In this document: positions 50,235 through 51,891 of the stretch, piece after piece
Layout: every line of letters begins with the position of its first letter
How positions within the stretch are numbered: position 1 is the stretch's first letter
DNA from: Oscillospiraceae bacterium
GTDB taxonomy: Bacteria > Bacillota > Clostridia > Oscillospirales > Butyricicoccaceae
Reading direction: 5' to 3'
Length of the DNA: 64,000 bases
NCBI GenBank assembly: GCA_015068445.1
Contig: SVKN01000001.1
Coordinates: 62,001-126,000, forward strand
Notes under the pieces: generated by a model
Told to the model about the DNA's origin: nothing
Databases searched by the model: none
What the model saw: the letters and a program-made list of their open reading frames with translations, nothing else
Translations under genes and position numbers: made by a program

Positions 50235-50768
50235 TTATTTGGCCTTCAGCAGACCGTAGCCGCCGTCCTTTCTCTTGTAGACGACGCAATAGGCGTTCTT
50301 TTCTTCGCTGTTGATGAAGAAGAAGAACTCGTGGGACAGCAGGTTCATCTGCATGATGGCGTCCTCGACGGTCATGGGCTTGACCTCGAGCTCCTTGACG
50401 CGGACGACGTCGAACTCCTCGTCAGGAACGTCCTCCACGACGTCGGCGATGGGCGAGGCCTTGGCGAAGGAATCGACGCGCATGCGCTTGCTCAGGCGGG
50501 TCTTGTTCTTCTGGATCTGGCGGTCGATGGAACTGACGGCGCCGTCGACGGAAGCGTACATATCGTTGGTGCAGGTCTCGGCGCGGAAGTAGAAGCTCTT
50601 GTAGGTCAGCGTGATCTCCACGTTGTGCATGCCGCGCTGGATGGAATAGGTAACGGTGCCGTCGGCTTCTTCATTGAAGTAACGGTCCAGTTTCTTGCAT
50701 TTCTTTTCGGTGTAGGCCTTGAGGTCGTCCGAAATGGTGACTTTTCTTTCGATGAACTTGATATTCAT
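50235..50768 (-). CDS. hpf: Ribosome hibernation-promoting factor, long form
   Basis: 177 residues, the long type that dimerises ribosomes into 100S particles in stationary phase. The N-terminal domain (about 1-105) binds the decoding centre (MNIKFIERKVTISDDLKAYT, KLDRYF, IQRGMHNVEITL). After a linker comes the C-terminal dimerisation domain (about 120-177: KPMTVEDAIMQMNLLSHEFF and VVYKRKDGGYGLLK). GGAG is seven bases before the ATG. A 28-codon frame overlaps the start codon, and a structured RNA candidate lies upstream on the other strand. Confidence 0.97.
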   Translation of the reverse strand: MNIKFIERKVTISDDLKAYTEKKCKKLDRYFNEEADGTVTYSIQRGMHNVEITLTYKSFYFRAETCTNDMYASVDGAVSSIDRQIQKNKTRLSKRMRVDSFAKASPIADVVEDVPDEEFDVVRVKELEVKPMTVEDAIMQMNLLSHEFFFFINSEEKNAYCVVYKRKDGGYGLLKAK

Positions 50769-50851
50769 GCTTCTTCTCCTTTTCTGAGGGATCTTTGTGT
50801 TTGTCCTGCACAGGTCCTGCCGCAGCGAGCCGGCCGGGTCCAGACATCCAT
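50765..50851 (-). CDS. Possible 28-codon leader peptide overlapping the hpf start
   Basis: ATG 50851 has GGGAGGAG six bases upstream, a better ribosome site than that of hpf itself. The frame reads MDVWTRPARCGRTCAGQTQR and eight more residues, and its TGA overlaps the hpf ATG (ATGA). Five arginines and two cysteines stand out. It could couple hpf translation to an upstream event. It is short, and no homologue is known to me, so it may be chance. Confidence 0.35.
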   Translation of the reverse strand: MDVWTRPARCGRTCAGQTQRSLRKGEEA

Positions 50852-50902
50852 AAGGAACTCCTCCCGTCTATTTGTTTTCGACACGTTTCCCGGAGGGAAC
50901 GT

Positions 50903-51053
50903 GATAAGATGATCGTGTTCTCCGGAACACAGCGCAGGCGTCAAAGACGCTTCGGCGTCTGCGGTGCGCTCCGGAAAAGCGCCGGGCCGCGCCGTTCATA
51001 TCTTTATCCCCACAACCCCATTTTTGCCGCTCCGCGAGGGGCGGCCCTTTTTT
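50903..51053 (+). ncRNA. Candidate structured RNA with its own terminator, divergent from hpf
   Basis: About 150 bases fold with many pairs. A closing helix joins GATAAGAT (50903-50910) and ATCTTTATC (51000-51008), with one bulge. Inside are hairpin GTGTTC-TCCG-GAACAC (50915-50930) and a longer stem, AGCGCA with TGCGCT (50931-50936/50965-50970) plus AGACGC-TTCG-GCGTCT (50945-50960). The 3' end is a terminator: GCCGCTCC-GCGA-GGGGCGGC, CC and six T (51026-51053). GACGC can pair with a GCGTC on either side. The promoter is not clear. The raiA RNA motif is known near hpf/raiA genes; identity is not proven here. This accounts for most of the 337-base gap. Confidence 0.5.
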
Positions 51054-51067
51054 ATGGAGCCGGGATG

Positions 51068-51100
51068 AAAAAAAAGCGCAGTCTCCTTGTGGGACTGCGC
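51068..51100 (-). terminator. Terminator of the yabR-like gene
   Basis: Minus-strand GCGCAGTC pairs with GACTGCGC around a nine-base loop and is followed by eight T; it lies right after the S1-domain gene stop. Confidence 0.9.
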
Positions 51101-51105
51101 CATGG

Positions 51106-51573
51106 TTATCTTCTTCTGCGGGCGCCGGAACGCCTGTCCTTCTGCATGCGCAGATCGGACATTTTCGATTCGCTGCGCTGCATGAAAGCGCGCAGCTTAT
51201 CCTCGAACTGGCTGTCGGCGGTGGGCTCCTGAACGGGGCCTTCCGCTGCGGCCGTGACGGGCGCAGCCCCGGACCTTGTGTGATCACGGCCGGACGGGGC
51301 GGCATTGCGCACGGTGGGCGCGCCGGATTTCTCGGGCGGCGGGAGGGCCTTCTTGATGGAGAGGTTGATGCGTCCGTTCTGGTCGATGGCGATGAGCTTG
51401 ACCTTGACGACGTCCCCTTCCTTCAGATGCTTGTGAATATCGTCCACGTATGTGTTGGCGATCTCGGAGATATGGACCATACCGGACTTGCCGGGCGCCA
51501 GCTGAACGAAAGCGCCGAAGCCGGTGATGCCTGTGACCTTACCCTCGTAAATGTTCCCTACCGTCAGATCCAT
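51106..51573 (-). CDS. S1 RNA-binding domain protein (YabR-like)
   Basis: 155 residues. Residues 1-73 form one S1 OB-fold: VGNIYEGKVTGITGFGAFVQ, GKSGMVHISEIANTYVDD, GDVVKVKLIAIDQNGRINLS. The rest is a low-complexity basic tail, with KMSDLRMQKDRRSGARRRR at the end. Its place after divIC is that of yabR in Bacillus. It probably binds RNA or ribosomes; exact role unknown. Confidence 0.9.
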   Translation of the reverse strand: MDLTVGNIYEGKVTGITGFGAFVQLAPGKSGMVHISEIANTYVDDIHKHLKEGDVVKVKLIAIDQNGRINLSIKKALPPPEKSGAPTVRNAAPSGRDHTRSGAAPVTAAAEGPVQEPTADSQFEDKLRAFMQRSESKMSDLRMQKDRRSGARRRR

Positions 51574-51606
51574 CTTGCTGCTGCCTGCCCCCTGAAATAA
51601 AAGTGC

Positions 51607-51891
51607 CTATTTGCCGGAGATATCGACGAAGACACGCTGACCGGGCATGATGTAGCCCAGACGCTCGCGGGCGATCTGAGCGATGTATTCGGTCTCGTCT
51701 CCGCCCTTCAGAACGTCGCTGATCTCGCTGTTTTCCAGCTTCTGCGCATCGATCTGCTGCTGAAGCTCGGCCATCTCATTCTGCTTGCTGCGGATCTGCA
51801 TCTGCAGAGAGACGATGGTGAAGGCCGCATAAATCGAAAAAGCGATCAGAAACAGCTTGGCCGCCGCGCTGACCTTCTTCGTTTTTTTCAA
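51607..51891 (-). CDS. divIC: Septum formation initiator family protein (DivIC/FtsB-like)
   Basis: 94 residues: a basic N-terminus (MKKTKKVSAAAK), one transmembrane helix (about 12-30), a coiled coil (about 32-65, LQMQIRSKQNEMAELQQQID) and a short beta-like end (ARERLGYIMPGQRVFVDISG). It joins FtsL and DivIB in the divisome. The TTG start at 51891 follows AGGTGAGG. It has its own promoter (51930-51958), whose -35 box overlaps the end of yabQ. Confidence 0.9.
   Translation of the reverse strand: MKKTKKVSAAAKLFLIAFSIYAAFTIVSLQMQIRSKQNEMAELQQQIDAQKLENSEISDVLKGGDETEYIAQIARERLGYIMPGQRVFVDISGK

Follow-up and report, generated by a model that had tools for sequence, protein, structure and literature searches.

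The locus and its transcription unit

Within the 64,000-nucleotide stretch of DNA analyzed here (the window), two minus-strand genes, hpf and a gene for an S1-domain RNA-binding protein, leave between them a gap that very probably holds a conserved small RNA (sRNA) gene on the plus strand (Table 1). The S1 gene product shows similarity to NCBIfam PRK08582/CvfD under the cut-off, and divIC- and yabQ-like genes precede the S1 gene in its operon. On the minus strand at 51070-51105, GCGCAGTCCCACAAGGAGACTGCGC followed by a T run is the probable terminator of the S1 gene, so that each of the two convergent units would have its own terminator. A search for a phage or plasmid origin of the locus gave no matches.

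Table 1. Position of genes, predicted RNA and RNA elements in the window.
Feature	Position	Strand	Remarks
hpf, long ribosome hibernation factor	50235-50768	-	Pfam PF02482 and PF16321; incidental neighbor by synteny
Putative extended −10 promoter element, TGATAAGAT	50902-50910	+	weak, without a good −35 box in the window species; aligns with congener promoters
Predicted sRNA, ~137 nt	50917-51053	+	comparison of 100 loci; fold z −2.9
Genus-specific long 5′ hairpin	50925-50971	+	arms 50925-50942 and 50954-50971; 17 pairs
Hairpin directly 5′ of the core	50962-50994	+	incompatible with the outer long-hairpin pairs; equivalent in relatives
Unpaired conserved core, GCCGTTCATATCTTTATCCCCACAACCC	50991-51018	+	28 nt; comparison, and mean unpaired probability 0.74-0.97
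Strict 19-mer, CATATCTTTATCCCCACAA	50997-51015	+	within the core
Intrinsic terminator of the sRNA	51026-51053	+	stem 51026-51045, T run 51048-51053
S1-domain RNA-binding protein gene, YabR/CvfD/GSP13-like	51106-51573	-	Pfam S1 2.7e-20; synteny; convergent conserved neighbor

Comparison of homologous loci bore out the plus-strand non-coding RNA opposite hpf that the initial annotation had proposed, together with its terminator: a terminator followed the core in 94 of 98 loci, versus 5% at random places. Upstream of the core, a σA-type promoter (score ≥10) was found in 83% of 98 loci, versus 5% at random places in the same loci, and these promoters are of the TTGACA-17-TATATT type. Since a promoter, a sequence-variable 5′ hairpin and a terminator surround an invariant core, we conclude that this is an independent sRNA; at the level of computation, both the separate transcription unit and the open, constrained core are established. 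The RNA measures ~85-165 nt across loci and typically consists, over ~90 nt, of a hairpin, the open core and the terminator. Its 5′ end in the window, at ~50917, was placed from the position of the promoter, whose −10 element aligns with the strong TTTACA/TATTAT promoters of six congeners. The good −35 box of these congeners has been lost in the window species, where expression of the RNA may be weak or may depend on another factor.

The gene upstream of the RNA differs among loci (hpf, amidohydrolase, thioredoxin-reductase-like and others). It is usually an amidohydrolase gene (64 of 100 loci; Pfam PF01979/PF07969), while hpf lies 1.1-2.5 kb from the RNA in 39 loci and directly adjoins it in 10, the window among them. 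Because the amidohydrolase gene separates the RNA from hpf in most relatives, hpf is an incidental neighbor, and the link between the two drawn in the initial annotation is not supported. The RNA lies between two opposite-strand genes and might overlap the divergent gene's leader at its 5′ end, as would suit an element acting in cis, either as an antisense RNA or as the leader of a neighboring gene. We consider this quite unlikely, as the upstream gene varies while the core is invariant, the RNA has its own promoter and terminator, and the initiation regions of the S1, DivIC and YabQ genes show no special complementarity to the core, that of hpf showing a small excess.

The core sequence and its distribution

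When 60 relatives were searched with the 151-base box (50903-51053) described in the initial annotation, 53 matched, mostly over only ~30 bases (window 50989-51024), and these short matches occupy the equivalent setting opposite the S1 gene. The important part of the locus is the unpaired segment at 50991-51018, which the initial annotation had missed: it is C-rich, open in predicted folds, and far more strongly conserved than the stems. Among 84,980 named species scanned, 88 stretches matched, practically all of them belonging to Butyricicoccus, Agathobaculum, Intestinibacillus and relatives without a name. In the family of these RNA-bearing genomes, the Butyricicoccaceae, the core is single-copy in 59 of 61 genomes, and a search allowing 3 mismatches found CATATCTTTATCCCCACAA unaltered in all 59. 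A second family carries the core in 9 of 9 genomes. Three more families of the order, reached with a sequence model and then with a gapped pattern, carry the variants TATCCCACAACCC and TATCCCCAACCC, which differ in the number of C or CA; the reversed control pattern gave 0 matches in the gapped-pattern search. Between families, the blocks UCAUAUCUUUAUCCC and CAACCC are fixed and the linker is shorter by one or two bases. Across the phylum, 398 genomes yielded only two 3-mismatch matches, which is the level of the control pattern, and the core was not found in the remainder of the class, bar one unrelated-looking match. A match in family f10 (L344) and an exact match in Lachnospiraceae (L052) were set aside as chance.

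Some loci carry further features. In homologues from two other families (L337 at 1434-1539, L332, L335, L336 and L378), the predicted 5′ end bears an additional motif, (A)CAGCTTATCC or ACGGCTTATCCCCGT, which in some cases lies in a small loop. The UUAUCC of the core recurs in this motif. At the place equivalent to that of the RNA, three other genomes (L378, L381 of genome G048 and L388 of G044) have a promoter, a C-rich stretch and a terminator, with a more diverged core. L381 and L388, where these elements lie on the 3′ side of the S1 gene and the core is much diverged, are possible distant homologues in further families. The core pattern may therefore capture only part of the RNA family.

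Could such a sequence act as a DNA site, or as a short coding leader, without RNA function? In many species an ATG stands directly 5′ of the core and the frame MHRSYLYPHNP can be read, but every codon position is invariant, the start codon is missing in many loci, and one-base indels (CCCC/CCC) separate the families. A coding peptide is ruled out by these indels and by the lack of variation at third positions. The stems, moreover, vary while their pairing is kept, and we regard this whole class of explanation as highly improbable.

Stems, alternative folds and known RNA families

The 151-base box folds better than 200 shuffles (z −3.6). A hairpin immediately precedes the core in 78 of 99 loci, with 51 different stem sequences, a pattern in which structure is kept and sequence is free. 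In the genus of the window, the 5′ part has expanded into the long 17-pair hairpin, in which 95% of cells are paired across 7 species and two pairs show double, compensatory changes. The segment GGUGYGYUCYG can pair either within the long hairpin or with the arm beside the core, and the two folds differ by ~0.6-6.5 kcal/mol in all seven species; an alternative pairing is thus predicted for the genus of the window. It is not the one proposed in the initial annotation. The elements quoted there are indeed in the sequence (GATAAGATG at 50903-50911, the TCCG and TTCG tetraloops, GACGC at 50946-50950, and GCGTC at 50938-50942 and 50955-50959), but the GACGC/GCGTC switch is not conserved, the loop lacking GACGC in the six other species of the genus. 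Nor is the closing helix GATAAGATG/CATATCTTTATC conserved: the invariant core supplies its 3′ arm, and its 5′ arm corresponds to the −10 box of relatives (TTATTAT etc.), is non-complementary there, and should not be transcribed. Covariation in homologous regions, the absence of which the initial annotation had named as a ground for refutation, was absent for the closing helix and present for other stems. Because the stems align poorly and RNAalifold returned no consensus pairs, our covariance model R1 is sequence-only.

Among the Rfam 15 models, none matched the window or its relatives at a useful score. The initial annotation had suggested a relation to raiA RNA and a search with the raiA and 6S models; neither model matches at the locus, and raiA gave no match in the window or 15 relatives. 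RF03072 (raiA) was likewise absent from 30 relatives, a result that is weak by itself, the controls being equally silent. Both raiA RNA and the RNA described here are clostridial non-coding RNAs encoded close to a gene for ribosome hibernation. However, raiA RNA is a compact molecule of ~200 nt, built of 8 helices and two pseudoknots (PMC11751092), whereas the present RNA, without the P1-P8 helices or the pseudoknots, is a simple succession of hairpin, open core and terminator. A 6S RNA (RF00013) candidate, scoring 39 bits against a gathering score of 46.4, lies elsewhere in the same genome (G000:C84:12906-13079, outside the window), and the window RNA is therefore not 6S; 6S RNA is moreover a long rod with a central bubble, a feature that the window RNA does not have. 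Despite the proximity of hpf, the missing covariance-model match and the different architecture leave membership in raiA or 6S next to no likelihood. In several relatives, 6S candidates also scored just under the gathering score, so that 6S RNAs of this clade may be scored too low by the Rfam model.

Other known RNAs resemble this one in kind. RoxS/RsaE, a C-rich Firmicute sRNA (PMC5419742), also has its own promoter and terminator and, in unpaired C-rich regions, the capacity to bind G-rich Shine-Dalgarno regions by pairing; the window RNA, too, is an independent transcription unit with an exposed C-rich segment, but it has no known sequence similarity to RoxS/RsaE, its core is conserved over 19-28 nt, and it belongs to another clade. 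CsfG/ylbH RNA of endospore formers (PMC3574147) is likewise small, and the stretches that separate its helices are CU-rich and highly conserved; its targets are unknown (PMC9147052). CsfG is σF/σG-dependent, whereas the promoters here are of the σA type, and the CsfG/ylbH model was not among the Rfam matches to E 10 for 50300-51700, nor among those to E 0.5 for relatives. The best sub-threshold Rfam score, obtained in one relative, was for the Neisseria metabolic switch regulator NmsR (RF02877; 31.6 bits, E 0.38), which has a comparable layout of hairpin, open segment and terminator; under its 52-bit gathering score and from an unrelated phylum, it was treated as chance. The RNA did not turn up in the paper library, whether searched by keyword or by sequence. 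It represents an sRNA family that is new, although its general kind is known.

Possible roles of the core

The core complement, GGGGAUAAAGAUAUGA, reads like a Shine-Dalgarno sequence, a spacer and AUG, the core itself being anti-Shine-Dalgarno-like. Because of this, and because C-rich Firmicute sRNAs such as RoxS pair with mRNAs in this way (PMC5419742), we infer mRNA pairing. The stem-loops would protect the ends of the RNA and hold the core open, and the core, 5′-UCAUAUCUUUAUCCCCACAACCC-3′, would pair with G-rich translation initiation regions, blocking or stabilizing several mRNAs in the manner of RoxS/RsaE. We give an even chance to this reading, an independently transcribed, trans-acting sRNA whose family is new and restricted to a single order of Clostridia, with the core pairing with mRNAs. 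In one nearly complete relative, a scan of 1809 initiation regions gave 92 sites complementary to the core, versus 84 ± 29 for 25 dinucleotide shuffles, which is no excess. The sole outstanding target match was cheA (−33 kcal/mol, in one genome), which we rejected because it is not conserved: cheA occurs in 17 of 61 genomes, not including that of the window, and the strong pairing fails in the others. Long complementary partners sought in the 61 genomes were mostly 3-mismatch matches, slightly above the reversed control, and no common gene was identified.

The seeds of sRNAs are usually shorter than the 19-nt invariant stretch, which counts against mRNA pairing, as does the weak promoter of the window species. 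Alternatively, the core could be a protein-binding site, with the RNA as a decoy or scaffold to which an RNA-binding protein attaches, perhaps the S1-domain protein encoded beside it, a tentative reading that we hold to be the less probable of the two. The constraint over 19-28 unpaired, pyrimidine-rich nucleotides goes beyond the needs of a seed, the two fixed blocks with a shrinking linker are as expected for two protein contacts, and the mRNA complementarity is without excess. In addition, the S1 gene is convergent to the RNA within 400 nt in 74 of 100 loci, from several families (including f1, f7 and f15). However, conservation of a neighbor can be passive, and at least 19 loci with sufficient flanking sequence (including f13, some of f1 and some of f3) keep the RNA without an S1 neighbor. 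The narrower proposal that the RNA and its YabR-like S1 neighbor are partners in a dedicated ribonucleoprotein, with the two pyrimidine-rich blocks as the candidate binding site, is unlikely. YabR-like S1 proteins are a widespread and poorly understood family, and such a ribonucleoprotein, if real, would provide their first known cognate RNA.

Butyricicoccus, Agathobaculum and their relatives include butyrate-producing gut bacteria, and the library searched yielded no literature on their regulatory RNAs. An RNA that is single-copy in nearly all genomes of the family, with an invariant unpaired run that exceeds most sRNA seeds in length, is likely to play a central role. With a single locus, culturable species and clear mutants, it offers an immediate experimental handle.
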